Positions 473 to 60,192 of a stretch of 64,000 bases of DNA are shown here, piece by piece. Under the pieces are notes generated by a model. The model worked only from the letters and a program-made list of their open reading frames with translations, was not told where the DNA came from and made no database searches. This stretch comes from Geobacillus thermocatenulatus. GTDB lineage: Bacteria > Bacillota > Bacilli > Bacillales > Anoxybacillaceae. Both the position numbers and the translations under genes were made by a program. The stretch spans positions 249,164-313,163 of the forward strand of contig NZ_NEWK01000002.1 in the NCBI RefSeq assembly GCF_002217655.1, read 5' to 3'. Position 1 is the first letter of the stretch. Every line of letters starts with the position of its first letter.

Positions 473-1516
473 TCATCCCTCCTTGGCATATCGTTCGCTC
501 CGCTCTTGGCGCGAGGCAGCAGCCAGTTCCGCGGACGCTTGTCTTGCTTCCAGCTGAAGGCGGCGCGCTTCGCCCCGCTTCGCTTTCAAACGGATGATCC
601 CCCCAGCAATGCCATGAGGGTAAAAAATGATGAGCAACGTCAATACAGGCCCGAAAATCAACATCCGATAATCTTGCAAAAACTGCAGCTGCTGGGACAA
701 AAATGTAACCAAGAGCGTGCCGACAACCGGTCCGGCGAGCGTGCCAATCCCGCCGACAAGCAAATACGTTAAAAAGTCAAACATAACGCTGACGTACGCA
801 ATGTCTGGGCCGAGAAAACGGATGAACGATGCATACAGCGCCCCGGCCAGCGATGTAAAAAAGACCGAGAGAACAAACGAGGCGAGCTTGTTTTTCATCG
901 TCGAAATGCCAAGCGTCAAGGCGAGCTCCTCGCTGTTGCGAATGGCAATGTACGTCCTCCCCGTCAGCGAATAAACAAGGCGATGCATGATCCAAACAAC
1001 GACAAGCAAGAAAAACAACACCAAATAATATTGCGCGGCGGGCGTTTGAAACGAGAGCGGCCCGATGTCAGCCGGCGCCGGGATGCCAATGAAACCGCGC
1101 ACTCCACCGGTTAAACTGTCCCATTTGTCAATGATCAAATAGATGATGTAGCCGACGCAAAGCGTATAAATGGCGAAAAAGTGTTCTTTCGTTCGCAAGG
1201 CGACAAGTCCGACGAAAACGCCGATCAACGTCGTCAGCAAACACGCTGCGGCAAAAGCAAGCCAAAACGGCCAGCCGGCTTTTACCGTCAAAATGCCGAG
1301 CGCATACGCGCCGATCGCAAAAAATCCAGCGTGGGCAAGCGACAAATACCCCGTATAGCCGGCAAACAAGTTCAATCCGTACACCGCAATCATCCAAATA
1401 AAGGAAATAGTCATCATATGCACGTAATAGCCGTTGGCAACGAAAAGCGGAAAGAGAATCGCCGCAGCGATGAGGGCAGCAAGCCATAGGCGCCGTTTTT
1501 CCAAAATGGCCATCAA
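473..1516 (-). CDS. livM: Branched-chain amino acid type ABC transporter permease LivM
   Basis: The 347-residue protein is a hydrophobic permease with about eight to ten membrane segments and the typical LivM stretch GYTGYLSLAHAGFFAIGAYA near residue 55. It would form the membrane channel with LivH, fed by a periplasmic-type binding protein that is not in this window. The last roughly 38 residues form a highly charged tail rich in Arg, Glu and Ala that extends beyond the usual permease end. It overlaps livH by 4 nt, which implies translational coupling. Its place downstream of acyl-CoA catabolic genes suggests a carboxylic acid substrate rather than an ordinary amino acid, but that is inference. 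Confidence 0.9.
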   Translation of the reverse strand: MMAILEKRRLWLAALIAAAILFPLFVANGYYVHMMTISFIWMIAVYGLNLFAGYTGYLSLAHAGFFAIGAYALGILTVKAGWPFWLAFAAACLLTTLIGVFVGLVALRTKEHFFAIYTLCVGYIIYLIIDKWDSLTGGVRGFIGIPAPADIGPLSFQTPAAQYYLVLFFLLVVVWIMHRLVYSLTGRTYIAIRNSEELALTLGISTMKNKLASFVLSVFFTSLAGALYASFIRFLGPDIAYVSVMFDFLTYLLVGGIGTLAGPVVGTLLVTFLSQQLQFLQDYRMLIFGPVLTLLIIFYPHGIAGGIIRLKAKRGEARRLQLEARQASAELAAASRQERSERYAKEG

Positions 1517-2376
1517 CGTCCCTCCTTGGCAAACAGTCCGTTCGGTTTGACTGTTAAAATGATGACGAGAATGGCGAAGGCGATAATATCCTTGTAGTCA
1601 TTCGAAACATATGTCGCCCCCAAACTCTCGCTGAATCCTAAAATATAGCCGCCGACAATGGCGCCGGGAATGCTTCCCATGCCGCCGAGAATGATGATGA
1701 CAAACGCTTTCAAGATGACGAGATGCCCCATGCCGGGAAACACAAGGTTGATCGGCGAAGCGAGCGACGCAGCCAGTGCGGCCAAACTGCCGGAAAGGAA
1801 AAACGTCAGCATGGCGACTTTATTCGTGTTAATGCCGACCAAATTCGCCCCTTCGCGGTTTTGCGCCATCGCGATGATCGAGGCGCCGATGAACGTTTTT
1901 TTCAAGAAGAGGTAAAGCAAGATCATGATGATGACAGCGGATGCGATGATGAGGATGCGTTGAATGGTCAATGTGAATCCGAACACCGTGACGACATCGC
2001 CATACGGGGTCGGCATCGTCTGATAGTCCGCCCCCCAGACAAACTGGGCAAACGCTTCCAAAAAGAGCAAGATGCCGATCGCCGCGATTTTATCATGGAG
2101 CGGCGGCGCATTGCGAAGCGGATAAAACACGAGCCGCTCCATCAAGACGCCAAGCAGCCCGACCGCCGCCATCGATGCGACGATCGCGAGCCCATACGGC
2201 ATCCCGAGCTTTGTCATGGCCGTCAATGTGACATAACCGCCCATCATATACAGCGCGCCGTGGGCGAAGTTTGGAATGTGCAAAATGCCGTAAACGAGCG
2301 TCAACCCTAACGCCACGAGGCTGTAAACGCTTCCAACAGTCAGCCCGTTTAACAGCTGCTGAATGAACAACTCCAT
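1513..2376 (-). CDS. livH: Branched-chain amino acid type ABC transporter permease LivH
   Basis: The 287-residue permease has the LivH start (NGLTVGSVYSLVALGLTLVY) and about eight hydrophobic segments; its length is normal for the family. It pairs with LivM as the channel of a high-affinity importer. The gene starts 27 nt after the end of the upstream TetR gene and has a GGGGGGAT-type ribosome site. No promoter is evident in the short gap, so it is probably transcribed together with the acyl-CoA genes upstream. Family identity is clear; the transported substrate cannot be read from the sequence. Confidence 0.9.
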   Translation of the reverse strand: MELFIQQLLNGLTVGSVYSLVALGLTLVYGILHIPNFAHGALYMMGGYVTLTAMTKLGMPYGLAIVASMAAVGLLGVLMERLVFYPLRNAPPLHDKIAAIGILLFLEAFAQFVWGADYQTMPTPYGDVVTVFGFTLTIQRILIIASAVIIMILLYLFLKKTFIGASIIAMAQNREGANLVGINTNKVAMLTFFLSGSLAALAASLASPINLVFPGMGHLVILKAFVIIILGGMGSIPGAIVGGYILGFSESLGATYVSNDYKDIIAFAILVIILTVKPNGLFAKEGR

Positions 2377-2403: not shown

Positions 2404-3012
2404 TCAGTTCAGCGGCCTATCCGTCTCTTTGTTTATCTCCGTCCCATCAGGCGTCCGAATGCCATGTAAAATAAAATCGACGTAAATCTCGGTCAGCTCT
2501 CTTTCTGAAATGCTCCCATCCGGCTGAAACCAATAATAGCTCCAGTTCGTGATCCCAAGCAGGCCAAAGGTGATCATTTCCGCGTTGAGGGACGCCTTGA
2601 ACTCGCCGCGCGCCATTCCGTCCCGAATAAGCTGTTCATACCGCTTGCGAAACAACCGCCGCTTGGCGCGGATCTCCTCCAAGTGGCCATCAGCCAAATG
2701 CCGCATTTCGCGGAAGAAAATGCGGGCGCTTTTCTTCCGCGTGCGAATGTTGCAAATGACCATATAGACGATCTCCCACAGTTTTTCCGTGCAGCTCGCC
2801 CCTGCATCTTCAAGGATGCGCTCCTGCTGCCGCAGCAAATCATCCATATAAGAAAGGCAAATATCAGAAAGCAGCTCTTCTTTGCTTTTGTAATAGTAAT
2901 AGAATGCCCCCTTCGTTGCCCCAACCGCTTCCACGATTTCCTGCACCGACGTTTCTTTGAATCCTTTCCGTTCAAACAACTCAATGGCGGCTTCTCTTAA
3001 CTTATCTTTCAT
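2404..3012 (-). CDS. TetR/AcrR family repressor of the acyl-CoA/liv operon
   Basis: The 202-residue protein has an N-terminal TetR helix-turn-helix (SVQEIVEAVGATKGAFYYYY, about residues 22-41) and a helical ligand-binding domain. The C-terminal part carries the motif NWSYYWFQPDG near residue 160, also seen in the TetR protein at 59566-60192 as NWTYKWYNPDG. Such regulators commonly sense acyl-CoA esters. It sits between the thiolase and livH genes inside the operon, so it would be autoregulated. The likely target is the palindrome at 7195-7212 behind the operon promoter. The regulator-operator pairing is inferred from position and from the sister system at the other end of the window. Confidence 0.85.
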   Translation of the reverse strand: MKDKLREAAIELFERKGFKETSVQEIVEAVGATKGAFYYYYKSKEELLSDICLSYMDDLLRQQERILEDAGASCTEKLWEIVYMVICNIRTRKKSARIFFREMRHLADGHLEEIRAKRRLFRKRYEQLIRDGMARGEFKASLNAEMITFGLLGITNWSYYWFQPDGSISERELTEIYVDFILHGIRTPDGTEINKETDRPLN

Positions 3013-3032: not shown

Positions 3033-4202
3033 TCATTCTCGTTCAATAATCGTCGCGATGCCTTGGCCGCCGCCGATGCACGCCGTAATCAGCGCATACT
3101 TTCCGCCGCGACGTTTCAATTCATACACCGCTTTCGTGATCAAAATCGCCCCGGTCGCGCCAAGCGGATGGCCGTGGGCAATGGCGCCGCCGTTGATATT
3201 CACTTTTTCCGGATCCATTTCAAGCTCTCGGTCGCAGGCGATCACTTGCGCGGCAAACGCTTCGTTGATTTCGATGATGTCCATCTCATCAAGCGTCAAC
3301 CCCACTTTTTCCAGCACTTTTCTTGTCGCCGGCACCGGACCGATGCCCATGATGTTCGGGTCGACCCCGGCGACCGCATGGGCGCGGATGACGGCAAGCG
3401 GCTTTACGCCAAGCTCCTCTGCTTTTTCCCTTGACATGATGACGAGCGCGGAGGCGGCATCGTTTAGCCCCGAGCTGTTCCCGGCTGTCACCGTTCCGCC
3501 TTCCAAAAACGCCGGCGGCAGTTTGGCGAGCGCTTCCATCGTCGTGTTCGGACGCGGATGTTCATCCGTATCGAAGACGAATGGCTCGCCTTTTTTCACC
3601 GGAACGGTGATCGGCACGATTTGTTCGTCAAACCGTCCTTCCTGCATGGCACGCGCCATGCGCTGCTGGCTCCGCAAAGCAAACGTGTCCTGTTCTTCAC
3701 GGCTGATGCCGTACTTTTTCGCTAAGTTTTCCGCCGTAATCCCCATCGGCGGGTCGCCGATCTCTTTTGGCGACAGCTGCGACTTGCGGAAGCTGGGCGG
3801 TGTTGAGCTGTACGGTTTTTCTGGGCGGTCCATCAAATACGGCGCGCGGCTCATGCTTTCCACGCCGCCGGCGATATAGACGTCCCCGTCGCCAGCCCAA
3901 ATGGCTTGCGCCGCCAACGTCACAGCGTTAATGCCCGAACCGCATTGGCGGTCAACGGTCAAGCCCGTCAGCTCCAAGGACAACCCGGTTTGCAACGCCG
4001 TCAGCCGGGCGATGTTGCCGCCGCCGCTTAAGACATTGCCCATGATGACATCATCAACGTGCTCCGGGCCGATGTTCGCCCGCCGCATCGCTTCTTTGAT
4101 CACTTCCGCGCCGTAAATATGCGCCGGCAGCGTCGCCAAAGCGCCTCCTTGGCGGGCAATGGCCGTCCGCACTGCGGACACAATGACAGCATCCCGTTTC
4201 AT
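3033..4202 (-). CDS. Thiolase (acetyl-CoA C-acyltransferase)
   Basis: This thiolase of 389 residues would cleave a 3-ketoacyl-CoA with CoA, releasing acetyl-CoA as the last beta-oxidation step. The nucleophilic Cys is in DRQCGSG (about residue 87), the catalytic His in [10 protein letters not shown] (about 345) and the second Cys in CIGGGQG (about 375). Three consecutive ATG codons begin at 4208, 4205 and 4202. The GGGGG ribosome site ending near 4211 favours the last, which also gives the usual family length. A longer in-frame reading to 4301 would overlap the upstream hydratase gene and looks spurious. The gene lies between the MaoC pair and the TetR gene. Confidence 0.92.
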
Positions 4203-4297
4203 CATCATTCCCCCTTGCTCTTTGTGAACACATCCCCGCAAACGGGCCGACCCCCTTGCCCCGCTTACGGCTTCAGCTCTGGGGCCGCCCGTCTTTT

Positions 4298-4702
4298 TCA
4301 ATCGTAAAGCGCAAAAATGGCTTCGCCTTTGACAACTTCCTTGCCATGTTGGTTGACGGCAGCGACATCAAACCGAATCGTCTTGCCGTCTTTTTCTTTC
4401 ACCGTTGCTTTTAAAGTGATGACATCGTGTAAAAACACCATCGACTGAAAGCGGACAAAATAATTTTGCACAAACCCTTCTTCGTAATACGGCGTAAACA
4501 GCTTTGCGAGGTTGCCCATCGTCCACATGCCGTGGGCGATAATGCCTGGAAGTCCTGCCTTTTTCGCCTCGTCGTCGATCGTATGAATCGGATTGTAGTC
4601 GCCTGATGCGCCGGCATATTTGATCAAATCGAGCCGGGACACCGGGGGAAGCGTTACGTCAGGAAGCGACTGCCCTACTTGCCAATCGCGGATCGTCGTC
4701 AT
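4298..4702 (-). CDS. MaoC-like (R)-specific enoyl-CoA hydratase, active subunit
   Basis: This 134-residue single hotdog domain has the hydratase motif GDYNPIH at residues 34-40, with the expected catalytic Asp and His. It would hydrate a 2-enoyl-CoA. It overlaps the upstream hotdog gene (4699-5169) by 4 nt, and that partner lacks the catalytic His. Paired small hotdog proteins of this kind are known to form heterodimeric hydratases for bulky acyl-CoAs, as with ChsH1/ChsH2 in steroid catabolism. Because the hydration partner here is an SDR dehydrogenase, the pathway may proceed through (R)-3-hydroxyacyl-CoA. That stereochemistry is inference. Confidence 0.85.
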
Positions 4703-5169
4703 ACGCTCATCGCCTTTCTAACCGCCTCGTTGATGATAATCGTCGAGGTCGAAGTAAAAACGAGATTCCCATCAGGGTCTTCGCCGTTGTTGGCGATGAC
4801 CAAAAAGCCAAGCAGGCCCATGCTGCTTTGTTTTTCGTAATAATCTTTCACTTCCGCGTAGCAGTACAGCTCTTCGCCGACAAACAACGGACGTTCATAA
4901 TGGAAGCGCTGCTCGCCGTGAATGAGCCCTTTGGCTGGCAATTTCAACCCTTCAATGACGCCGTAGTCAAACACGCGCGGAAACGTCGGCGGGGCAATGT
5001 TGCGCCCGTAGCGCGACCGTTTCCCCGTCTCTTCGTCCCAATAAATCGGGTTTGGGTCGCCGATCGCCTCGGCAAACTTTTTTACCGCCCCGCGCTCAAC
5101 GACATTTTTCACTTTCGCCGACCGTTTGCCAATGTCATGTTGATACACGCTCCGCCCCCCCTTCAACAT
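4699..5169 (-). CDS. MaoC N-terminal type hotdog protein, hydratase partner subunit
   Basis: The protein of up to 156 residues is a FAS1/MaoC_N-type hotdog domain. At the place of the hydratase motif it reads GDPNPIYWDE, with Tyr where the catalytic His should stand, so alone it is probably inactive and serves as the substrate-binding half of a heterodimer with the next gene. The ATG at 5169 overlaps the SDR stop codon. A GTG at 5148, preceded by AAGGGGGG, is an equally good or better start and gives 149 residues. The gene overlaps the following MaoC gene by 4 nt. Family placement is good; the heterodimer is inferred from arrangement and the missing residue. Confidence 0.8.
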   Translation of the reverse strand: MLKGGRSVYQHDIGKRSAKVKNVVERGAVKKFAEAIGDPNPIYWDEETGKRSRYGRNIAPPTFPRVFDYGVIEGLKLPAKGLIHGEQRFHYERPLFVGEELYCYAEVKDYYEKQSSMGLLGFLVIANNGEDPDGNLVFTSTSTIIINEAVRKAMSV

Positions 5170-5927
5170 TTCGGGCCGCCGGCCACATACAGCACTTGGC
5201 CGTTGACAAACGACGACCGTTCGTCGGCGAAAAACGCAACCGCATGAGCGATGTCTTCCGGACGGCCGCTGCGCCCGACCGGGATGTTGGCGACGCTCGC
5301 TTGGATGAGCTGCTCAAACGAAATGCCGAGCCGCTCGGCGGTTGCTTTTGTCATATCGGTTTCAATGAATCCCGGGGCGACGGCGTTTGTCGTAATGCCG
5401 AACTTGCCGAGCTCGATCGCCAACGTTTTCGTAAAGCCTTGAATGCCGGCTTTCGCCGCCGAATAGTTCGCCTGGCCGCGGTTGCCGAGCGCGGAGGTCG
5501 ACGAAATGTTGATGATGCGCCCGTACCCTTTTTCGACCATATATTTTTGCGCGGCGCGGGCGCAGTAAAACGCGCCTTTTAAATGGACGTCCATCACCGT
5601 TTGCCAGTCGTCATCGGTCATTTTAAACAGCAAATTGTCGCGGATGATGCCGGCGTTGTTGACGAGAATATCGAGCGAGCCGAATCGTTCGACCACTTCT
5701 TGCATCGTCGTTTCCACTTGTTCACGGTCGGTGACGCTCGCCACCTTGGCGTAAACGTCATACCCTTTTTCCCGCAGCTCCGCAGCCGTCGCTTCAAGGG
5801 CTTCTGCGTTTAAATCAATGAACGCCACTTTCGCTCCTTCTTCCGCGAAGCGGGTGACAATCGCCTTGCCAATGCCGCGGCTTCCTCCGGTCACAAACGC
5901 CACTCTTCCTGCAAACCGTTGGCTCAT
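5163..5927 (-). CDS. Short-chain dehydrogenase/reductase, FabG-like (3-hydroxyacyl-CoA dehydrogenase role)
   Basis: The 254-residue classical SDR has the cofactor motif TGGSRGIG at residues 13-20, NNAG near 90, and the catalytic set Ser143, Tyr156 and Lys160 (QANYSAAKAG). In this context it would oxidise a 3-hydroxyacyl-CoA formed by the MaoC hydratase pair. The start at 5927 has an AAGGGAGGAG ribosome site; a much longer in-frame extension runs into the upstream acyl-CoA dehydrogenase gene and is rejected. The 35 nt gap to that gene holds a cre-like sequence (5945-5958). FabG-like annotation is common for these genes, but the operon favours catabolism over fatty acid synthesis. Confidence 0.88.
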   Translation of the reverse strand: MSQRFAGRVAFVTGGSRGIGKAIVTRFAEEGAKVAFIDLNAEALEATAAELREKGYDVYAKVASVTDREQVETTMQEVVERFGSLDILVNNAGIIRDNLLFKMTDDDWQTVMDVHLKGAFYCARAAQKYMVEKGYGRIINISSTSALGNRGQANYSAAKAGIQGFTKTLAIELGKFGITTNAVAPGFIETDMTKATAERLGISFEQLIQASVANIPVGRSGRPEDIAHAVAFFADERSSFVNGQVLYVAGGPKC

Positions 5928-5962: not shown

Positions 5963-7141
5963 TTAGATGAACTGTCCAAGCTTCACGTGCCCTTTGATCA
6001 AATTGCGGGCGATAATGAGGCGCTGAATTTCGTCCGTGCCGTCGTAAATGCGCCACAATCTCGCTTCGCGATACCAACGCTCGATCGGCATTTCCTTCGT
6101 ATAGCCCATGCCGCCGTGGATTTGCATGACGCGGTCGACGACGCGATTGCCCATGTTGGCGCCAAACAGTTTCGCCATCGACGCCAAGTGGCGGTTGTCC
6201 TCGCCTTGGTCGAGCGTAAACGCGGCATTTAAGACGAGCCATTTGGCCGCCTCAATTTCCACCGCCGAATCGGCGATCATCCATTGGATTGCTTGCCGCT
6301 CGGCGATCGGCTTGCCAAACGTGACGCGCTCTTTCGCATAATCGATCGCCATCTGCAGCAGCCGCTCGGCCGCTCCGACCGCACGGGCGCCGACGACCCA
6401 GCGGGCGTAGCCGATCCACTCAAGCCCAAGCTTATAGCCGTGATGCAGCTCGCCTAAAATGTTTTCTTCCGGCACGCGCACGTTTTCGAAAATCAAGCTG
6501 GCTGGCGTCGACGGCCCCATTGTATAGATCGGTTCGGAGCGCCAGCCCATCTCGCGGTCGACGATAAAACATGTCACCCCTTCACGCCCGTTCGAGGCTT
6601 GGTGACGCTCTTTGTCAGTGATGGCGATCACCATGACAAAATCGGCGTCATTGCCGCCGGTGATGAACGTTTTTTCCCCGTTCAGCACCCATTCATCCCC
6701 ATCTTTGACCGCCGTCATTTTGATGTTGCGTGTATCGGACCCCGCCCCTGGCTCGGTCATGGCGAAACACGATTTTTTCTCGCCGTTGATCGTCGGGATC
6801 AAATATTTTTTCTTCTGCTCCTCATTGGCATAATACAAAATGTTGTCCGCCGACCCGCCGAACTGGAACGGAACGAGCGTTTTCGACACTTCCATTAGAA
6901 CGATCGCCTGCATGACGTGGCCCAAGTTCGCGCCGCCGTATTCCTCCGGCGTGTTGATCCCCCAAAAACCCGCTTCTTTCGCTTTTAATTGCAATTCTTT
7001 CAATTTCTCCGGCGCAAGCCCGGGCTTCCCTTCCCGCTCGTTGCGCAACACTTCGTTTTCAAGCGGCATTAACTCTTTTTCGACAAACTTGCGGATCGCT
7101 TTTTGCACCATGCGCTGCTCGTCCGTTAAGCGCAAATACAT
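5963..7141 (-). CDS. Acyl-CoA dehydrogenase
   Basis: The 392-residue flavoprotein is of normal length for the family and has typical motifs: FAMTEPGAGSD near 128-138, FITGGNDADF, and QIHGGMGYTKEMPIERWYRE near 340. It would introduce the first double bond into an acyl-CoA. At the usual catalytic position (about 367) it reads YDGT, so Asp replaces the Glu of the common YEGT; some subfamilies place the base elsewhere. It is the first gene of the operon that continues with SDR, MaoC pair, thiolase, TetR and liv genes. The start at 7141 has a GGAGGGGAC ribosome site. The substrate is not identified. Confidence 0.9.
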   Translation of the reverse strand: MYLRLTDEQRMVQKAIRKFVEKELMPLENEVLRNEREGKPGLAPEKLKELQLKAKEAGFWGINTPEEYGGANLGHVMQAIVLMEVSKTLVPFQFGGSADNILYYANEEQKKKYLIPTINGEKKSCFAMTEPGAGSDTRNIKMTAVKDGDEWVLNGEKTFITGGNDADFVMVIAITDKERHQASNGREGVTCFIVDREMGWRSEPIYTMGPSTPASLIFENVRVPEENILGELHHGYKLGLEWIGYARWVVGARAVGAAERLLQMAIDYAKERVTFGKPIAERQAIQWMIADSAVEIEAAKWLVLNAAFTLDQGEDNRHLASMAKLFGANMGNRVVDRVMQIHGGMGYTKEMPIERWYREARLWRIYDGTDEIQRLIIARNLIKGHVKLGQFI

Positions 7142-7194: not shown

Positions 7195-7212
7195 ATACCA
7201 ACCGGTTGGTAT
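7195..7212. promoter_or_regulatory. Perfect palindromic operator of the acyl-CoA/liv operon
   Basis: ATACCAACCGGTTGGTAT is a perfect 18 bp palindrome 10 bp downstream of the -10 box at 7222-7227, so a bound repressor would block transcription start. The core ACCAACCGGTTGGT resembles the two palindromes before the yng operon (59467-59480 and 59531-59548), both near another TetR gene. It is assigned to the TetR protein at 2404-3012 by inference. Confidence 0.75.
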
Positions 7213-7221
7213 GTTATCTTT

Positions 7222-7250
7222 ATTATATTAGAATGTTCTGAAAAGTACAA
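7222..7250 (-). promoter_or_regulatory. Sigma-A type promoter of the acyl-CoA/liv operon
   Basis: On the minus strand a -35 box TTGTAC (7250-7245) and a -10 box TATAAT (7227-7222) are separated by exactly 17 bp. The operator at 7195-7212 lies at the expected start point. No second promoter was seen before the left edge. Confidence 0.7.
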
Positions 7251-7320: not shown

Positions 7321-8064
7321 CTATTCCGCCTGTATTTGCTTGCGCACGCTAGCGACCGTTTCCCCGATTCCGTCATAAATGACAAGGTCAAAGATTCCGT
7401 CCATTCTTGTCGCTGTTTTGTTGATCAACACTTTCTTTGTCGCCGGCGATTCGGCGGCCACGTAAAACGGGATTTGGTTGACGGGCGTCACTTCCAAGCT
7501 CGTTCCCATCGCCAAAAACAAATCGCTTTGCGCCGCCTTGGCAAACGCTTCTTCGATATGCGGCACAAGCCCGCCAAACAACACGACATCCGGTTTGACA
7601 ATCGTCTGGCACTTTTCACAGCGCGGCACCTCGTGACGGTTGATAAACGACAGATCATATTTGTTGCCGCATGACGGGCATGTCGCCGTCTGCAGCGTGC
7701 CGTGCAGCTCAATGACATTCGTGCTTCCTGCTTTCGTATGCAGCCCATCAATATTTTGCGTCAAAATCGTCACCGTTTTGCCAATGTCCTCAAGCCAGCG
7801 GAGAAACCGATGTCCGTCATTCGGGGCAAAGCCGCCCATCATTTTTAATGAAAACAACCGCTTAAATCGACGCCAAAAATCAACCGGATCTTTCTTGTAG
7901 TAATGCTCTGACAAATAATATTCGACATGGTCCTCTTGGGCGTAAAGACCGTTTTCGCTGCGGAAATCAGGAATGCCGGACTCCGTGCTCATCCCGGCCC
8001 CGGTCAGGACGGCGATTGTATCGGCTTCTTTGATCCACTCAGCCAATCGTTTGACGGAACCCAC
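7321..8064 (-). CDS. cobB: NAD-dependent protein deacetylase (sirtuin)
   Basis: This sirtuin removes acyl groups from lysines using NAD. With the GTG start at 8064 it has 247 residues: TGAGMSTESGIPDFRS (21-36) binds NAD, QNID is at 103-106, the catalytic His is in ELHGT (His121), and four Cys (129, 132, 149, 152) form the zinc site. An in-frame ATG at 8115 exists but has no ribosome site. The GTG is preceded by GGAAGGTGG, and the shorter protein aligns with the usual sirtuin start. It stands alone between the acyl-CoA operon promoter and an MFS gene. A link to control of acyl-CoA enzymes by deacetylation is plausible but unproven. Confidence 0.9.
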   Translation of the reverse strand: MGSVKRLAEWIKEADTIAVLTGAGMSTESGIPDFRSENGLYAQEDHVEYYLSEHYYKKDPVDFWRRFKRLFSLKMMGGFAPNDGHRFLRWLEDIGKTVTILTQNIDGLHTKAGSTNVIELHGTLQTATCPSCGNKYDLSFINRHEVPRCEKCQTIVKPDVVLFGGLVPHIEEAFAKAAQSDLFLAMGTSLEVTPVNQIPFYVAAESPATKKVLINKTATRMDGIFDLVIYDGIGETVASVRKQIQAE

Positions 8065-8168
8065 GTTTTTCCACCTTCCATTTGACGGCATAATAAGAAC
8101 ATGATTTGTCTCCATAGTGTATTACCGAACATTTGCAAGCATGACATCCACTTTTTGTTTTCGTTTTT

Positions 8169-51496: not shown

Positions 51497-53050
51497 TCAA
51501 ACGGGATACACGCCGTGCTTCCGCTCGGAAAAGACCATATATTTGGACATATACGCGGCAAACCGCCGGATGAGTTCGTCGCGCAAATCATTCGGCGCGA
51601 TGATGCCGTCAACGACCAATTCAGAAGCGAGCCGATAAATATCGATGTCGCGCCGGTATTCCTCGCGTTTTTGTTCGACAAACGCCGCACGCTCTTCTGG
51701 CGGCAGCTCCGCAATTTTGTTGGCGTAGACGGCGTTGACGGCCGCTTCCGGCCCCATGACGGCGATTTGCGCGTTCGGAAGCGCCAAGCAGCAATCCGGT
51801 TCAAACGCTGGCCCGGCCATCGCGTACAATCCGGCGCCGTACGCTTTGCGGACGATGACCGAGATTTTCGGCACAGTGGCTTCCGACATGGCCGCGATCA
51901 TTTTCGCCCCATGGCGGATGATGCCGGCCCGCTCAACTTTCGTGCCGATCATAAAGCCAGGGACGTCGGCCAAAAACAAAAGCGGGATATGGAACGCATC
52001 GCAAAGCGTAATGAACTTCGCCGCTTTGTCGGCCGAATCGTGGAACAAGACGCCGCCTTTGACGCGCGGCTGGTTGGCGATGATGCCGATCGGCTGGCCG
52101 TTAAGGCGCGCCAGTCCCGTAATGATTTCCGGCGCAAACAGTTTTTTGATTTCACAAAACGAACCTTCGTCAATGATCCGCTCAATCAAATCATACATGT
52201 TGAACGGCGCATTTTGGTTTTCCGGCAAAATGTCTTCGATCGTTTTGTCAAACGATTTCGGCGGCTTCGCCTCGACCACCGGCGGTTTTTCGCCGTAATG
52301 GGACGGAAAATATGACAAATAACGGCGTGCATAGGCAATCGCTTCTTCTTCGGTTTTCACGAGCACGTCGCCGCAGCCGGAAACGGTGCAATGCATGCGG
52401 GCGCCGCCCATCTCTTCGAGCGTCACTTTTTCCCCAATCACCATTTCCGCCATGCGCGGCGAGCCCAAGTACATCGAGGCGTTGCCCTCGACCATGATGA
52501 CGATGTCGCAAAACGCCGGAATATAAGCGCCGCCGGCCGCTGACGGGCCAAACAACAGGCACACCTGCGGCACTTTGCCGGACAGCTTCACTTCGTTGTA
52601 AAAAATGCGCCCCGCCCCGCGCCGGCCGGGAAACATTTCGATTTGATCCGTAATGCGGGCACCGGCCGAGTCCACCAAATAAATGATCGGGCAGCGCAGT
52701 TTTTCCGCTGTCTCTTGAATGCGAATGATTTTTTCGACGGTGCGCGCTCCCCACGAGCCGGCTTTGACGGTCGAATCGTTCGCCATCACGCAGACGGTGC
52801 GGCCATGGATTTTGCCGATGCCGGTCACGACTCCATCAGCCGGCAGGCCATCCGCCAAACAGTTGGCAAACAGCCCGTCTTCCACTTCCAAGCCGTGATC
52901 AAGCAGCAAATTCAGCCGCTCGCGGACAAACAATTTCCCTTGGGCCGCATTTTTTTCATGATATTTTGGCGCCCCGCCTTTCTTGATTTCCGCCGCTCTT
53001 TTCTCCAGCTCCGCTGCGAGCGTGTCTTGCTGATTGGCAGTTTCTTTCAT
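51497..53050 (-). CDS. yngE: Acyl-CoA carboxylase carboxyltransferase subunit (3-methylcrotonyl-CoA carboxylase beta-like)
   Basis: The 517-residue carboxyltransferase has the paired landmarks PGRRGAGRIFYNEVKLSGKV near 145, GPSAAGGAYIPAFCD near 168 and, in the C-terminal half, NQPRVKGGVLFHDSADKAAK near 320 and RKAYGAGLYAMAGPAFEPD near 408. It transfers CO2 from biotin to an acyl-CoA. With YngH and YngHB it would carboxylate 3-methylcrotonyl-CoA in leucine breakdown, as the next genes imply. The start at 53050 is preceded by AAGGAGGG, at a 12 nt spacing that is a little long. It is the last gene of the operon. Confidence 0.9.
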   Translation of the reverse strand: MKETANQQDTLAAELEKRAAEIKKGGAPKYHEKNAAQGKLFVRERLNLLLDHGLEVEDGLFANCLADGLPADGVVTGIGKIHGRTVCVMANDSTVKAGSWGARTVEKIIRIQETAEKLRCPIIYLVDSAGARITDQIEMFPGRRGAGRIFYNEVKLSGKVPQVCLLFGPSAAGGAYIPAFCDIVIMVEGNASMYLGSPRMAEMVIGEKVTLEEMGGARMHCTVSGCGDVLVKTEEEAIAYARRYLSYFPSHYGEKPPVVEAKPPKSFDKTIEDILPENQNAPFNMYDLIERIIDEGSFCEIKKLFAPEIITGLARLNGQPIGIIANQPRVKGGVLFHDSADKAAKFITLCDAFHIPLLFLADVPGFMIGTKVERAGIIRHGAKMIAAMSEATVPKISVIVRKAYGAGLYAMAGPAFEPDCCLALPNAQIAVMGPEAAVNAVYANKIAELPPEERAAFVEQKREEYRRDIDIYRLASELVVDGIIAPNDLRDELIRRFAAYMSKYMVFSERKHGVYPV

Positions 53051-53221
53051 CTCTTTGGTTTCCCTCCTTGTTTTGATGGATCTTGCTGTTCCATCCCGCG
53101 TGTTCGGCCGGAACACGGTTGGATGCCGTTTTTTTGTTGCCGCGCGAATGCCGATGCGGGGCAAGCGCTCCGTTGCGGCTTTCTCCTTATCCAAACAGCC
53201 CCATCCTGCCCAAGCGCGGGC

Positions 53222-54004
53222 TTACTCCCCTTTGTACACCGGCTTCCGCTTTTCTTTAAACGCCTGCAAGCCTTCGAGCCGGTCTTTCGTTGGGATCGTC
53301 GCCTCATAGGCGAGCTGCTCGATCGCCAGCCCGGTTTCAAGGTCGACGTTAAACACGCTTTGCACCGCCCGTTTCGCCTGGCGGACAGCGATCGGAGCAT
53401 TGTCAGCAATTTGCCGGGCCAATTCGAGCGCCCGATCCATGAGCTCGGCGCGCGGCACCGCGTATTCGACAAGGCCGATTCGCTCGGCTTCCTGCGCTGT
53501 AATCCGTTTGGCGGCAAAAATCAACTCTTTCGCTTTGCCGAGACCGACAAGGCGCGGGAGCCGCTGCGTGCCTCCCGCCCCCGGAATGATGCCAAGCGAC
53601 GTTTCCGTCAGCCCAAGCTGGATATCGTCGGCGGCAAACCGGATGTCGCAGGCGAGCGCCAGCTCAAGCCCCCCGCCAAAGGCCGAGCCGTTTAACGCGG
53701 CGATGACCGGCTGCGGCGTTTTCTCCACCTCGTTGATCGTCTTGCTGATTAAGGCGACCGTCTGCCGCACTTCCGTTTCATTCATCCCCGCCCGCTCTTT
53801 CAAATCAGCGCCGGCGCAAAACACTTTTTCTCCCGCCCCAGTCAACATGACAACGCGCACGTCTTTCCGAAATTTGATCTCCTGAAAGAGCGCTCCAAGC
53901 TCGAAAAGAAGCGCTCTTGAAAGCGCGTTGGCCGCTTCCGGGCGGTTTAATGTCACAATGGCGATGCCGTTTTCTTGTGTCTCAAACGATACAAGTGTGC
54001 TCAC
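53222..54004 (-). CDS. yngF: Enoyl-CoA hydratase (3-methylglutaconyl-CoA hydratase-like)
   Basis: The 260-residue crotonase has GSAFGGGLELALACD near 107 for the oxyanion hole and IIPGAGGTQRLPRLVG near 138, with the catalytic Glu positions as in hydratases (Glu in GLELA and the TETSLG region). It would hydrate 3-methylglutaconyl-CoA to HMG-CoA. The GTG at 54004 is preceded by GGGGGGAG; the ATG at 54028 lies within the upstream gene and has no site. It is in the yng operon between HMG-CoA lyase and the carboxyltransferase. Confidence 0.88.
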   Translation of the reverse strand: MSTLVSFETQENGIAIVTLNRPEAANALSRALLFELGALFQEIKFRKDVRVVMLTGAGEKVFCAGADLKERAGMNETEVRQTVALISKTINEVEKTPQPVIAALNGSAFGGGLELALACDIRFAADDIQLGLTETSLGIIPGAGGTQRLPRLVGLGKAKELIFAAKRITAQEAERIGLVEYAVPRAELMDRALELARQIADNAPIAVRQAKRAVQSVFNVDLETGLAIEQLAYEATIPTKDRLEGLQAFKEKRKPVYKGE

Positions 54005-54017
54005 GTTTTCTCCCCCC

Positions 54018-54917
54018 TTATGATCCAACCGTTTGCAAATAGCGGCTCGGAAGCGGGCGTCCGATTTTGTCGCGGATAAACAACGCCGCTTTCGTCAGCT
54101 GCTCGACATCGATGCCGGTTTCAATCCCCATTCCGTGGAGCATATACACCAAATCATCGGTGGCGACGTTTCCCGACGCTCCGGGAGCGTACGGACAGCC
54201 ACCGAGGCCGCCGAGCGAGCTGTCAAACGTCGTAATCCCCATTTCCATGGACACTAAAATATTGGCCAGCGCCGTCCCCCGTGTATCGTGAAAATGCATG
54301 GCGATCCGTTCGACCGGAAAGCGACGAAGCACCTCAGCAAGCACGTCCTCCACTTGTTTGGGCGTCGCGACGCCGATCGTATCGCCAAGCGACAGTTCGT
54401 CAACCTCCATCGCCAACAACCGGTCCGCCACCATCAACACTTGATCGACGGCAACAGGCCCTTCATATGGGCAGCCAAAGACGGTGGAAACGTAGCCGCG
54501 CACCGTTTTTCCTGCTTGTTTTGCCGTTTTCACGACCGCTTCCAGCACCGGAAATGTGGCAGCGATCGTTTTGTTAATATTTTTTTGGTTGTGGGCTTCG
54601 CTCGCTGACATGAAGACGCCCACTTCATCGACCCCGGCGCCAAGCGCCCGCTCAAGCCCCTTTTCGTTGGGGACGAGCGCCGCATACGTGACGCCGGCTT
54701 TCCGGCGAATGCCCTCTGCCACTTCAACGGCGTCCGCAAGCTGTGGAATCCATTTCGGATGGACGAAGGAGGTCACCTCAATGTACGACAACCCCGTTTC
54801 TGACAATAGATTGATCCAGGCAATTTTATCGGCGGTTGCGATCGGCGTTGCTTCGTTTTGCAGGCCGTCGCGCGGGCCGACTTCTTTGACCGTCACCTTC
54901 GCCGGCCATCGGCTCAT
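54018..54917 (-). CDS. yngG: Hydroxymethylglutaryl-CoA lyase
   Basis: The 299-residue TIM-barrel enzyme has the DGLQNE motif at about 15-20 and the HMG-CoA lyase signature GLGGCPYAPGASGN near 235, with the active-site Cys. It cleaves HMG-CoA into acetyl-CoA and acetoacetate, the end of leucine breakdown. This signature is specific and identifies the pathway of the whole operon. The ribosome site is AAGGGGGAGCAG. The length is normal. Confidence 0.93.
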   Translation of the reverse strand: MSRWPAKVTVKEVGPRDGLQNEATPIATADKIAWINLLSETGLSYIEVTSFVHPKWIPQLADAVEVAEGIRRKAGVTYAALVPNEKGLERALGAGVDEVGVFMSASEAHNQKNINKTIAATFPVLEAVVKTAKQAGKTVRGYVSTVFGCPYEGPVAVDQVLMVADRLLAMEVDELSLGDTIGVATPKQVEDVLAEVLRRFPVERIAMHFHDTRGTALANILVSMEMGITTFDSSLGGLGGCPYAPGASGNVATDDLVYMLHGMGIETGIDVEQLTKAALFIRDKIGRPLPSRYLQTVGS

Positions 54918-55170: not shown

Positions 55171-56523
55171 TCATTTCGTTTTTATTGGTTTCCAATGTTT
55201 CGAAAGGAAATCGGTCGTTGTATCCCCCGCTTGAAACGCTGGATGAGACAACACGGCCTCAAGCAGCGGAATGTTCGTTTTAATCCCTTCAACGCGATAG
55301 TCTCGAAGCGCTTCGAGCAAGCGTTCAATCGCCGTTTGCCGATCCGGCCCTTTGGCAATCAACTTCGCGATCATCGGATCATAAAACGGCGTGACCGTGA
55401 TGCCGCTTTGAACCGCCGTTTCATGACGAATCCATTCGCCTTGTGGGGCGGAAAACACCGTAATGCGGCCGGGCGACGGGTAAAACGTGTTCGGATCTTC
55501 GGCATAAATGCGCACTTCCATGGCGTGCCCGTCGCGGCGAATCTCTTCTTGTTTATAGCGGAGCGGCTCGCCGGCGGCGATGCAGAGCTGCTCTTCGACG
55601 ATGTCGATGCCGGTGATTTCTTCTGTCACCGGGTGCTCGACTTGCAGCCGAGTGTTCATCTCAAGAAAATAAAAATTTTTCTGTTCATCGACGAGAAATT
55701 CAATGGTACCGGCATTTGCATAACCGATGTAACGCGCAGCCCGCACCGCCGCTTCGCCCATTTTCTGCCGCGTTTCCTCATCCAAAAACGGCGACGGCGC
55801 CTCTTCGACCACCTTTTGATGGCGGCGCTGGATCGAGCACTCGCGCTCCCACAAGTAGACGCAATTGCCGTAGGAATCGGCGAGCAGCTGAATTTCAATA
55901 TGGCGCGGGCGTTCAATATATTTTTCAATGTACATCGTCCCGTCGCCGAAAAACGAAGCTGCCCGCTTTTGGCTCCCTTCAAACGCTTGGCGCAGCTCAG
56001 CTTCGTCGCGAGCGATATGCATGCCGATGCCGCCGCCGCCGGCTGACGCCTTCAGCATGACTGGATACCCAATCGAAGCCGCCGCTTTGGCCGCTTCATC
56101 GGCGCTATCAAGCGCAAAGGAGACGCCCGGGACGATCGGCACGCCGGCTTGTTCCATCGTCCGCCGCGCTTCGATTTTGCTGCCCATCGCCGCAATGATG
56201 TCCGCCTTCGGACCGATGAAGACGATTCCTTCTTCCTCGCAGCGGCGGGCAAACGCTGGATTTTCCGACAACAGCCCGTAGCCGGGATGGATCGCCTCCG
56301 CTTTCGCCGTTTTGGCAACCTCAATGATTTTTTCGATATTTAAATAGCTTTCCGCGACGCGCGGCTTGCCGATCAAATACGCTTCATCCGCGAGCGAGAC
56401 ATGAAGCGAATCGGCGTCTGCTTCGGAATAAATGGCAACCGTTTGAATGCCGAGACGTCGGCACGTGCGGATGACACGGACGGCGATTTCGCCGCGGTTG
56501 GCAATCAACACTTTCGAAAACAT
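55171..56523 (-). CDS. yngH: Biotin carboxylase subunit (3-methylcrotonyl-CoA carboxylase alpha-like)
   Basis: The 450-residue biotin carboxylase has the ATP-grasp motifs KASAGGGGIGMHI near 159-171 and ECSIQRRHQKVVEEAPSP near 230 and the C-terminal EVRIYAEDP domain. It carboxylates biotin on YngHB using ATP and bicarbonate. No BCCP domain is fused, as shown by the length. The 72 nt gap to yngI contains a GC-rich hairpin (about 56551-56588). The ribosome site AGAAAGGGTGAG precedes 56523. Confidence 0.92.
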   Translation of the reverse strand: MFSKVLIANRGEIAVRVIRTCRRLGIQTVAIYSEADADSLHVSLADEAYLIGKPRVAESYLNIEKIIEVAKTAKAEAIHPGYGLLSENPAFARRCEEEGIVFIGPKADIIAAMGSKIEARRTMEQAGVPIVPGVSFALDSADEAAKAAASIGYPVMLKASAGGGGIGMHIARDEAELRQAFEGSQKRAASFFGDGTMYIEKYIERPRHIEIQLLADSYGNCVYLWERECSIQRRHQKVVEEAPSPFLDEETRQKMGEAAVRAARYIGYANAGTIEFLVDEQKNFYFLEMNTRLQVEHPVTEEITGIDIVEEQLCIAAGEPLRYKQEEIRRDGHAMEVRIYAEDPNTFYPSPGRITVFSAPQGEWIRHETAVQSGITVTPFYDPMIAKLIAKGPDRQTAIERLLEALRDYRVEGIKTNIPLLEAVLSHPAFQAGDTTTDFLSKHWKPIKTK

Positions 56524-56595: not shown

Positions 56596-58224
56596 TTATA
56601 AGCCGAGGCGCTGTTTCGCCATTTCCCGCAATTTGAATTTCTGAATTTTCCCGGATGCCGTCATCGGGTACGAGTCGGTAAATTCGATATAACGCGGGAT
56701 TTTATGCCGGGAAATGTTGCCGCGGCAAAACTCGCGAATCTCCTCAGCGGTCGCCGTTTCGCCGTCTTTTAAGATGATCCACGCCATCACTTCTTCCCCG
56801 TATACTTCATCCGGCACGCCAACGACTTGAACGTCCAAAATTTTCGGATGTTTGTATAAAAACTCTTCGATTTCACGCGGATAAATGTTCTCCCCGCCGC
56901 GGATGATCATATCTTTCAGCCGGCCGGTGATGCGGCAGTAACCGTTTTCGTCCATCACCGCCAAGTCGCCGGTATGGAGCCAGCCGTCTTCATCGATCGC
57001 TTCGCGCGTCGCTTCCGGATTGTTGTAATATCCTTTCATGACATGATAGCCGCGCGTGCACAGCTCCCCTTGCACACCGGGCGGCACTTCCTTGTTCGTG
57101 CCCGGCTCGACGATTTTCACTTCCACGCCCGGCAAGGCGCGGCCAACCGTTTCGACACGCAGCTCAAGCGGATCATCGGTGCGCGTTTGCGTGATGACTG
57201 GGGACGCTTCCGTCTGCCCGTAGGCGATCGTAATGTCTTTCATCCCCATTTTCTCGATGACCGCCTTCATCACTTCGACCGGGCAAGGAGAACCGGCCAT
57301 AATGCCCGTGCGCAGCGACGACAAATCGTATTTGGCAAAATCCGGGTCGTTGAGCTCGGCGATGAACATCGTCGGCACGCCGTGAAGCGCCGTGCACCGC
57401 TCCGCTTCCACCGTCTCGAGAACCCGCTTCGGATGGAACTCCACAACCGGCACCATCGTCGCCCCGACCGTCACGCATGCAAGCGTGCTCATGACGCAGC
57501 CGAAGCAATGGAAAAACGGCACCGGAATGCACAATCGATCGCCTTCGCCAAGTCCCATGCATTGCGCTACTTGATGGGCGTTGTTGACGATGTTGTAATG
57601 CGTCAACATCACCCCTTTCGGGAATCCAGTCGTCCCGGACGTGTATTGCATGTTGATCACATCGTGCGGGTCGAGGCTCTCCATCCGTTCATCGAGTTCT
57701 TCTTCCGATACGTCGTGCGCCATCGCCAAGATGTCGTTCCAGGTGAACATGCCCGGGTACCGTTTGTCGCCAAGAAAGATCACGTTTTTCAACTTCGGCA
57801 GCCGTTTCGATTGCAGCTGTCCGGGCGCCGATGTGCGCAGCTCGGGAACGATTTCATATAAAATATCGATATACGACGAGTCGCGATATTGCTCAATCAA
57901 AAAGAGCGTCGTCGAGTCGGACTGCCGAAGCAAATACTCAAGCTCCGCCGCGCGGTAGTTCGTATTGACCGTCACGAGGACGGCTCCCATTTTGCCGGTC
58001 GCAAACTGGCAGGCGATCCATTCCGGGACGTTCGTCGCCCAAATGGCGACATGCTCCCCTTTTTCGATGCCAAGCCGCATCAACCCGCGCGCAACGAGGC
58101 GGCAATAGTCGTTAAACTGCCGATACGTCAGACGCAAGCCGCGGTCGGCGTACACGACCGCCTCATGGTCCGCATATTGCCTGGCTCGCTCTTCCAACAA
58201 TTTCCCCACAGTCACCGTCAACAT
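56596..58224 (-). CDS. yngI: Acyl-CoA synthetase (AMP-forming)
   Basis: The 542-residue adenylate-forming enzyme has the P-loop [13 protein letters not shown] near 190, the linker [14 protein letters not shown] near 395, and the [20 protein letters not shown] block near 440. It would activate a carboxylic acid, such as isovalerate or acetoacetate, to its CoA ester. In the yng context it may recycle acetoacetate or activate short branched acids. The start at 58224 has AGGGGAGG. The gene is followed by the GC-rich hairpin noted above. Confidence 0.9.
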
Positions 58225-58283: not shown

Positions 58284-59426
58284 TTAGCATCCCAGTTGGC
58301 GGGCGATGACGAGCCGTTGGATTTCTGATGTGCCTTCGCCGATTTCCATGAGCTTGATATCCCGCAAATGGCGCTCAACGCCGTACTCTTTCATATAGCC
58401 GTATCCGCCGTGAATTTGAATCGCTTGGTTGCAGACGCGGAACCCCATTTCCGACGCAAACAGCTTGGCGAACGATGCTTCTTTTGTAAACGGTTTCCCT
58501 TTGTCTTTCAACCAAGCCGCCTTGTACACCATATTGCGGGCAAGCTCAATTCCCATCGCCATATCGGCCAGTTTAAATTGAATGGCTTGAAACTTGGAAA
58601 TCGGCTGGCCGAACTGAACGCGTTCCTTCGCGTATTGAAGCGCTTTCTCAAACGCCGCTTGCGCGATGCCGACAGCCAAAGCAGCGATCGAGATTCGGCC
58701 GCCATCAAGCGTGTACAAAAACTGCTTAAACCCTTTTTGTGGGTCGCCTAATACGTTTTCTTTCGGCACGCGGACGTTCTCGAAAACAAGCTCGCACGTA
58801 TTGGACGCGCGCACGCCCATCTTGTCGTAATTCGAACGGATCGTAAATCCTGGGGAGTCGGTTGGCACGATGAGAGCGGTGATGATGTTTTTGCCGCGCG
58901 CATCTTTGCCCGTGACGGCGGTGACGATCACTTGCCGCGCGTATTGGGCGTTTGTGATCCAACATTTTTCGCCATTGATGACATATTCATCGCCGTCAAG
59001 CACCGCGGTCGTGCGCGTGCCGCCGGCGTCGGACCCGGCGTTCGGCTCTGTGAGCCCAAAAGCGCCAAGCGTCTCGCCTTTCGCCATCGGCACGAGCCAT
59101 TTTTGTTTCTGCTCCTCTGTTCCAAAATAATAAATGGGACTCGCCCCAAGTGACACGGCGGCCGCATAGCTTAGCCCGGTGCCGCCACAGGCGCGGCCGA
59201 TTTCCTCAACGGCGATGGCGTACGAAATCGTATCGCCTCCAGCGCCGCCGTATTCTTCCGGAAACGGCAAACCCAATAGCCCCAACTCGCCCATTTTGCG
59301 GAAGACATCCAGCGGAAAATGCGCCTCTTCATCCCATTTCGCCGCGTATGGGGCAATTTCCTTCTCAGCAAAGTCGCGAACCATTTCTTTAATCATTTGT
59401 TGTTCTTTCGTCAATGAAAAATCCAT
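58284..59426 (-). CDS. yngJ: Acyl-CoA dehydrogenase (isovaleryl-CoA dehydrogenase-like)
   Basis: The 380-residue flavoenzyme closely resembles B. subtilis YngJ by eye, with FGLTEPNAGSDAGG near 128 and QIHGGYGYMKEYGVERHLRD near 335. It has the canonical IGEGTSEIQ with Glu at the usual active-site position, whereas classical isovaleryl-CoA dehydrogenases carry the base elsewhere. It would make 3-methylcrotonyl-CoA, the substrate of YngH/YngE. The start at 59426 has GAGGGAG; a slightly longer reading to 59447 is less well placed. It is the first gene of the operon. Confidence 0.9.
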   Translation of the reverse strand: MDFSLTKEQQMIKEMVRDFAEKEIAPYAAKWDEEAHFPLDVFRKMGELGLLGLPFPEEYGGAGGDTISYAIAVEEIGRACGGTGLSYAAAVSLGASPIYYFGTEEQKQKWLVPMAKGETLGAFGLTEPNAGSDAGGTRTTAVLDGDEYVINGEKCWITNAQYARQVIVTAVTGKDARGKNIITALIVPTDSPGFTIRSNYDKMGVRASNTCELVFENVRVPKENVLGDPQKGFKQFLYTLDGGRISIAALAVGIAQAAFEKALQYAKERVQFGQPISKFQAIQFKLADMAMGIELARNMVYKAAWLKDKGKPFTKEASFAKLFASEMGFRVCNQAIQIHGGYGYMKEYGVERHLRDIKLMEIGEGTSEIQRLVIARQLGC

Positions 59427-59466: not shown

Positions 59467-59480
59467 ACCGACTAGTCGGT
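59467..59480. promoter_or_regulatory. Operator-like palindrome at the yng operon
   Basis: ACCGACTAGTCGGT is a perfect 14 bp palindrome 40 bp upstream of the yngJ start. It shares the pattern ACCRACYRGTYGGT with the operator at 7195-7212. The likely binder is the TetR protein encoded just upstream. Confidence 0.7.
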
Positions 59481-59530
59481 TTTGACTTCCGGTGCAAAAA
59501 AACAAACAGAACCCGCCGCGCCGGATAACA

Positions 59531-59548
59531 AGACCGACTAGTTGGTCT
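59531..59548. promoter_or_regulatory. Second operator-like palindrome near the TetR gene
   Basis: AGACCGACTAGTTGGTCT is an 18 bp near-perfect palindrome (one mismatched pair). It carries the same ACCGACTAGT core as the site at 59467-59480. It lies 17 bp past the TetR stop and could alternatively be a weak terminator stem. Confidence 0.6.
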
Positions 59549-59565: not shown

Positions 59566-60192
59566 CTATTCGGCGGCCGGCCGCAACAAAAACCGCGCCG
59601 CCGCTGGGTTTTCTGGTGTGCGGAGCACCGCATGCAAAATGAAATCGGCAAAATATGCCGCGATTTCCTCAATTGACAGCGGACCATCCGGATTGTACCA
59701 TTTGTATGTCCAATTGACCATGCCGATAATGGACATGCCAGTAATCTCCACCGACAGCTCCGGACGAAATTCCCCGGCTTCAATCCCCTCACGAATGACC
59801 CGAAAAATGATTTGCTTGAACTCTTCTCGCTTTTCATTGATCGGTTCAGCGTATTCCGGTTTTAAGTACGTGCTTTCCTGGTAAAACACGGTGATGTGTG
59901 GTTTATACAAATGAAACACTTTGACAAACGACTGAACGATGGCGTACAAGCGCTCAGTCGGCGTAGGAAAGCCCTCATACGCCTCCTGCGCTTTTGTCAG
60001 CGCATACGTGATAAAGACATCATGGATATGGTACAAGAGCTCGTCTTTTGATTTAAAATTATGGTAAAAACCGCCTTTGGATGTGTCGCTTTCGGCCACG
60101 ATGCGGTCGACCGTCACGCCGTGGTAGCCGTATTTCTCAAACAAATGAAGCGCCGTATCGATAATGCGATCTCTGAGCGGTTTGTCAGCCAT
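59566..60192 (-). CDS. TetR/AcrR family repressor of the yng operon
   Basis: The 208-residue TetR protein has the helix-turn-helix HGVTVDRIVAESDTSKGGFY near 25-44 and the C-terminal motif NWTYKWYNPDG near 165, as in the regulator at 2404-3012. It is expected to sense an acyl-CoA of leucine breakdown and repress yngJ-E, like LiuR in other bacteria. It sits 140 nt upstream of yngJ with two operator-like palindromes between them. The ribosome site AAAGGGG precedes 60192. Autoregulation would need operators on its own promoter, which are not obvious. Confidence 0.87.
   Translation of the reverse strand: MADKPLRDRIIDTALHLFEKYGYHGVTVDRIVAESDTSKGGFYHNFKSKDELLYHIHDVFITYALTKAQEAYEGFPTPTERLYAIVQSFVKVFHLYKPHITVFYQESTYLKPEYAEPINEKREEFKQIIFRVIREGIEAGEFRPELSVEITGMSIIGMVNWTYKWYNPDGPLSIEEIAAYFADFILHAVLRTPENPAAARFLLRPAAE

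Follow-up and report, generated by a model that had tools for sequence, protein, structure and literature searches.

The palindromes found in a 64,000-nucleotide stretch of Geobacillus thermocatenulatus DNA (the window) are very probably operators of PfmR-like TetR_C_24 repressors, of which one (T2) would be insulated, two (T1 and T3) would overlap in their sites, and T3 would act at an acyl-CoA dehydrogenase operon of its own. A preliminary description of this DNA had reported three sites fitting one pattern, an observation that we confirm: the regulatory system is real, well conserved and of a known kind. The sites themselves are predicted operators, and from sequence comparison we infer that they are bound in this bacterium. 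What is new here is the assignment of this kind of operator to three Bacillales paralogues, together with the existence of two site classes.

All three 14-mers were located in the window. The first, ACCAACCGGTTGGT (7197..7210), lies upstream of a liv-type operon on the minus strand, whose first gene encodes an acyl-CoA dehydrogenase (AcadH1; 5963..7141), followed by a FabG-like short-chain dehydrogenase (SDR; 5163..5927), two MaoC/FAS1-dehydratase-type genes (4298..5169; 4699-5169 and 4298-4702), a thiolase (3033..4205), the TetR-family regulator T1 (2404..3012) and two LivH- and LivM-looking permease genes named by eye (473..2376; 1513-2376 and 473-1516). ABC ATPase genes (called by eye) and a substrate-binding protein (Pfam) come next, partly beyond the window. 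Directly upstream of the operon and on the same strand stands a sirtuin-like deacylase gene, also named by eye (7321-8115). The other two sites, ACCGACTAGTCGGT (59467..59480) and ACCGACTAGTTGGT (59533..59546), are respectively proximal and distal to the leucine operon, the distal one immediately beyond the stop codon of T2 (59566..60192, minus strand); the preliminary description had placed the sites correctly, although the end that it gave, 59548, is two bases too far. The leucine operon, again on the minus strand, opens with an acyl-CoA dehydrogenase that is a probable isovaleryl-CoA dehydrogenase (IVD; 58284..59426), its probable substrate being deduced from operon company; no NCBIfam model scored above its cut-off for this gene. 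It continues with an AMP-forming acyl-CoA ligase (56596..58224), a biotin carboxylase-like gene (by eye; 55171-56523), an HMG-CoA lyase (model score over the cut-off; 54018-54917), an enoyl-CoA hydratase-like gene (by eye; 53222-54028) and a carboxyltransferase (by similarity; 51497-53194).

These sites are rare in the genome. A genome scan with the strict pattern, ACCRACYRGTYGGT, returned exactly three matches in 3.56 Mb, all in the window, against none for the reversed pattern, which was counted in the same sequence as the background control. Allowing one mismatch added 8 places, of which 5 are upstream of genes and 3 are not (L019 and L021 within coding sequence, L017 adjoining a T run). 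With up to two mismatches the 122 matches were not above the 144 of the control, so that matches this loose carry no information. More productive was a relaxed pattern, ACYRACYRGTYRGT, degenerate (C or T) at position 3 and correspondingly at its mirror position: it marks 7 sites in the genome versus 1 for the control, and all 7 are upstream of acyl-CoA-type genes, namely IVD (two sites) and, with one site each, AcadH1, the acyl-CoA dehydrogenase of the T3 operon (AcadH3), a 4HBT thioesterase, an AMP-forming ligase and an SDR operon. The two operons first thought to be controlled do carry conserved sites, but with at least six operons marked the regulon is wider than had been proposed. A one-mismatch site, ACCGACCTGTTGGT at L014 (C1:322196), precedes a TetR-MFS pair whose TetR has a PfmR-like helix, SKGAFYHHF.

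The same arrangement is conserved in the family, for which we used 41 genomes of 9 genera; these genomes are related, and their locus counts are hence not independent. A full-length T2 (74-100% identity) is present in 38 of them, the others being G004, G007 and G022 (a fragment), and a site adjoins T2 in 38/38. At least one exact ACYRACYRGTYRGT site was found upstream of IVD in all 34 loci read, with 62 sites in all, while for the remaining four genomes with T2 (G001, G005, G006, G009) the site beside T2 comes from the genome-wide site list. Two exact sites occur in 28 of the 34 loci and one in 6, in counts by upstream region that drop one-mismatch sites wherever an exact one is present (for instance the second site of L033); paired sites start 29-67 bp apart, and no clear helical phase was seen in their spacing. 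A site also stands upstream of AcadH1 in 25/25 orthologous loci and of AcadH3 in 26/26, and across the 41 genomes the relaxed pattern gave 189 matches versus 26 for the control. Among 34 further family sites examined, 29 adjoin orthologues of the acyl-CoA ligase, the thioesterase or the SDR; the other five fall in unrelated genes (L258, L260, L263, L268, L272) and were rejected, and L261 has no site within the region analysed in front of its SDR gene. G004 and G007, which have no T2, T1 or T3 match, contain no site. In G022, of the same genus, T2 is reduced to a 56-residue match and AcadH3 has internal stops, and sites persist before AcadH3 and the thioesterase gene (C1:1337028 and C1:848903).

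The sites fall into two classes: class I, (A/G)ACCGAC-TA-GTCGGT, which we pair with T2, and class II, TACYAAC-CG-GTTRGTA, which would belong to T1 and T3. The family IVD sites have a TA centre in 56/62 cases, A or G as the flank base in 98% of half-sites and G at position 4 in 73%. The AcadH1 sites have a CG centre in 19/25 cases and TA in 0, with a T flank and an A at position 4 in 100%; for the AcadH3 sites the figures are CG in 22/26, TA in 1, a T flank in 100%, A at position 4 in 92% and T at position 3 in 85%, position 3 being what distinguishes the majority of T1 sites from the majority of T3 sites. Outside the family the T2-linked sites are looser (TA 31, TG 19, CA 12 and CG 3 of 65), with a flank that is mostly G. 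A diverged central dinucleotide had been pointed out from the start, and TA versus CG is indeed class-specific, but the flank base and position 4 also differ, so that the distinction is not confined to the centre. In the family site list, which is complete for the genomes other than G023-G029, CG-centred sites are present in 21/21 fully listed genomes with T1 or T3 and in 0/11 with T2 alone (whose sites comprise 16 with a TA centre and 3 of another kind, each of the latter within a gene), a co-occurrence that is confounded because T1 and T3 lie in operons carrying those sites.

Matrices built by leaving one genus out told class I from class II correctly in 113/113 cases, but were right for T1 versus T3 sites in just 39/51. 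As to whether the two systems of the window are insulated or in crosstalk, both of which had been entertained, this comparison supports the separation of T1 from T2 and makes T1 and T3, not T1 and T2, the likely crosstalk pair. Since flank base, position 4 and centre set the T2 sites apart from those of T1 and T3, T2 is predicted to be insulated, and T1 and T3 probably bind each other's sites; this fits a T2 insulated from T1, with overlap likelier between T1 and T3. The thioesterase sites (L084 and its orthologues) are hybrid, with a TA centre in 12/15, lost in some genera, and a T flank in 87% of half-sites; 14/15 score best with the T3 matrix in in-sample bits, and they are possibly a point of action of both classes. 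The recognition helix reads SKGGFYHNF in 35/35 T2 rows and TKG(A/T)FYYY(F/Y) in 14/14 T1 and 17/17 T3 rows. We hypothesise that helix and site are associated, on the strength of few independent events (the two helix classes plus PfmR).

The main alternative is that one regulator serves all the sites, whose differences would then be drift without insulation. We find it unlikely, in spite of the core ACYRACYRGTYRGT common to all sites, the difficulty of distinguishing T1 from T3 sites, the hybrid thioesterase sites and the greater variability of T2-linked sites outside the family, for three reasons: (i) several positions distinguish class I from class II, and they do so in the same manner in each of the seven genera with both classes. 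(ii) The sites of the window score by class, the two class I sites reaching 24.9 and 26.1 bits with the T2 matrix versus 2.5-5.8 with the others, and the class II site 30.5 bits with the T1 and 25.6 with the T3 matrix versus 9.1 with that of T2, all in-sample. (iii) The recognition helices change in step with the sites.

The regulators themselves are related, but not in the way that had been supposed. T1 matches TetR_N at 60 bits and PF17932 (TetR_C_24) at 113, and T2 at 58 and 118 (Pfam gathering scores 24 and 26.4); both domains are also matched above these thresholds by PfmR and by T3, the third paralogue, which lies outside the window at contig C2:873.5 kb in a genome with a total of 10 TetR_N matches. 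T2 is 100% identical to a Geobacillus zalihae protein. The T3 operon (L081, C2:866000-882000) comprises the acyl-CoA dehydrogenase, an SDR, an AMP ligase, T3, an APH-type kinase and a 2-phosphosulfolactate phosphatase-like gene, a content that, we presume, recalls kinase-plus-dehydrogenase pathways for hydroxy acids. T1 and T2 do have the C-terminal motif ascribed to both (NWSYYWFQPDG and NWTYKWYNPDG), but equivalents occur in T3 (NWSYQWFRPEG) and PfmR (NWMIRWFRPDG); the motif is thus common more widely in TetR_C_24 proteins and is no evidence of a recent T1/T2 duplication. In a tree of 44 proteins (9 T1, 8 T3, 17 T2 and 10 others), T1, T3 and one Cytobacillus protein group together at 100/99 and T2 forms a separate clade, also at 100/99. 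The sister of T1 is hence T3, and not T2 as had been claimed.

A recent duplication giving rise to the two window regulators is accordingly very improbable: T1 and T2 have a common domain architecture and 32% identity, but T1 and T3 are 48% identical, T2 (31% to T3) is as close to PfmR (31%, the three paralogues ranging from 29 to 31%) as to T1, and relatives of T2 and of T3 are each distributed across other Bacillales. An exclusive T1+T2 clade is also rejected by the tree (AU p 0.0005), with the caveat that the program flags long branches outside the T1, T2 and T3 clades and at the junction of T2 with T1/T3.

The position of the class II sites is compatible with repression. The AcadH1 operon has a probable sigma-A-type promoter (7222..7250, minus strand; TTGTAC, 17 bp, TATAAT), and the operator starts 11 nt past its -10. 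A loose pattern, TTGNNN-16/18-TAWNNT, is matched in 25/25 AcadH1 loci, with a gap to the site that is always 11 nt; a stricter promoter scan did not report the AcadH1 promoter, whose -35 matches 3/6. Promoter scanning recognised none at the leucine operon. The AcadH3 sites begin 15-18 nt past a -10-like box in 26/26 loci. Lying just past a conserved -10-like box, the class II sites would be over the transcript start, as expected for a repressor. That the sites are instead transcription terminators or RNA elements is scarcely credible, for although 59467-59480 was flagged as terminator-like on the plus strand (a 5-pair stem, a 4-base loop, then T) and the stretch has 2 such features versus 0.3 expected in shuffles, the leucine operon is on the minus strand, the sites are upstream of first genes, with class II at a fixed distance from the -10-like box, the class II site showed nothing terminator-like in the scan, and PfmR recognises sites of this kind as DNA.

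Taking the sites as operators, we propose that T2 would bind the class I pair lying between the T2 and IVD genes and repress the leucine operon, that T1 would bind the class II site just beyond the promoter of the AcadH1-MaoC-thiolase-T1-Liv operon, and that T3 would control the AcadH3 operon through its class II site. To judge from the genes, the inducers would probably be acyl-CoA intermediates of the respective pathways. The 200 bases before T2 contained no site (at up to two mismatches to the strict pattern) in the 29 family loci checked, so that, within the family, T2 does not look autoregulated via this motif; a site does stand immediately before the T2 relative in several alkaliphiles.

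Four genomes (G010, G012, G015 and G016) are informative about T1 and T3. Their AcadH1 operon is shortened and T1 is gone; all four have T3, with 70-71% identity to the T3 of the window genome and 49-51% to its T1. The AcadH1 operator is kept in 4/4, and in 3/4 at least one of its half-sites has T at position 3. Retained operators with this T, which is the preference of T3, are the pattern that a takeover by T3 would leave. Running counter to it, G034 and G039 hold T1 yet carry the position-3 T on one side, and the G015 site, at 199 nt upstream, is of T1 type. On balance, and with modest confidence, we favour a three-paralogue network with a readable code, in which a YHN helix would go with G at position 4, a TA centre and a purine flank, and a YYY helix with A at position 4, a CG centre and a T flank; T2 would be orthogonal, T1 and T3 overlapping, T3 would take over the operon on loss of T1, and PfmR (YHH; G at position 4, CG centre) would be intermediate.

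The association of site and regulator extends beyond the family. A scan of Bacillales with the T2 alignment gave 139 relatives, of which 80 were kept (57-100% identity), from Bacillus, Mesobacillus, Brevibacillus, Halalkalibacter and others; having been seeded with GFYHNFK and YGYHGVTV, it is uninformative on the variability of the helix. Of these 80 loci, 64 have an exact site and 76 a site with at most one mismatch, against 1 and 9 for the reversed pattern, and across 100 permuted palindromes the mean was 0.08 loci and the maximum 3; conversely, 16 loci have no exact site and 4 not even a one-mismatch site. An IVD-like gene is present in 46 of the 80. In the six non-IVD loci viewed of 34 (L213, L218, L235, L237, L240, L248) we found parts of biotin-dependent carboxylases and mostly methylmalonyl-CoA mutase-like genes, with Pfam support for a single gene in each of L213, L218 and L237 and the rest called by eye; on these gene contents, the T2-type regulator seems tied to carboxylation branches of acyl-CoA catabolism. 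In L238 (Neobacillus kokaensis), L240 (Bacillus sp. EB600) and L252 (Paenibacillus sp. BSR1-1), respectively, three, five and four sites with no more than one mismatch lie downstream of the T2 relative. At E <=1e-25 the T3 query hits 184/299 genomes of the order, which sets an upper limit on the occurrence of T3, since T2-type proteins are included (G040, with T2 only, matches at 2.5e-31); the best 24 T3-like loci outside the family for which DNA was at hand (L297-L320) have a site within 1.5 kb in 18 cases, and the control in 0.

How do these regulators compare with known ones? Bacillus FadR (YsiA) is a TetR-family repressor of fatty acid catabolism, and its operator has a different sequence. 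As candidates for FadR (NF053878), T1 and T2 were rejected at 53.1 and 62.6 bits versus an NCBIfam cut-off of 200; the best NCBIfam model of T1 is RefZ, at 57.5 bits, under its cut-off of 180. The solved structure 3vpr, which we take to be PfmR, is the best match of T2 and the second of T1. PfmR (TTHB023) of Thermus thermophilus HB8 has the TetR_C_24 domain, as do T1, T2 and T3, and its gene is followed by acyl-CoA dehydrogenase, serine hydrolase, SDR and MaoC genes; in the tree it stands outside T1, T2 and T3, with about 30% identity, on a long branch that could mask co-orthology. Its own promoter (L153) carries two strict-pattern sites, ACCGACCGGTCGGT and ACCGACCGGTTGGT, at the record positions that Table 2 of PMC7022988 lists for the TTHB023 sites, and Table 3 of that paper gives PfmR a KD of 0.32 and 0.98 nM for the TTHB023-site 16-mers, which cover 13 of the 14 bases. 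PfmR binding at such sites means that this kind of operator is established in Thermus.

The PfmR sites are mixed, having the G at position 4 of class I and, as in class II, a CG centre and a T flank on at least one side. Compared with TACCGACCGNTNGGTN, the operator form of PfmR (the Agari consensus as quoted in PMC7022988), the 14-base core is matched, class I being mostly without the flanking T and having TA for CG, and class II having A at position 4; the selection consensus for PfmR given in PMC7022988 is centred differently from the 14-mer, which makes the exact register uncertain. PMC7022988 also describes SbtR (TTHA0167; consensus TGACYrnnyRGTCA) and PfmR as two Thermus TetR repressors binding one site, an overlap that was measured, in contrast to the separation of T2 and the overlap of T1 and T3, for which we argue from sequence. 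In Proteobacteria, branched-chain amino acid utilisation is regulated by LiuQ (TetR-family) and LiuR (MerR-family), LiuQ being unique to betaproteobacteria among the Proteobacteria of that study (PMC5343134); these are likened to T1 and T2 by description. In the open-access literature, to which the search was confined, we found neither the motif or the regulators in Bacillales nor published binding or expression work on T1, T2 or T3; the 17 papers that contain a 10-base word of the motif have unrelated titles and none of the five 14-base words.

For the catabolism of leucine and of related acyl-CoA compounds, our results propose both the regulators and their operators across Bacillales. They also provide a natural set of paralogues, with well over 100 conserved sites, with which to test how TetR proteins separate or share their targets after duplication. 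In this bacterium, small but conserved differences between sites seem to keep the breakdown of leucine apart from other acyl-CoA pathways.
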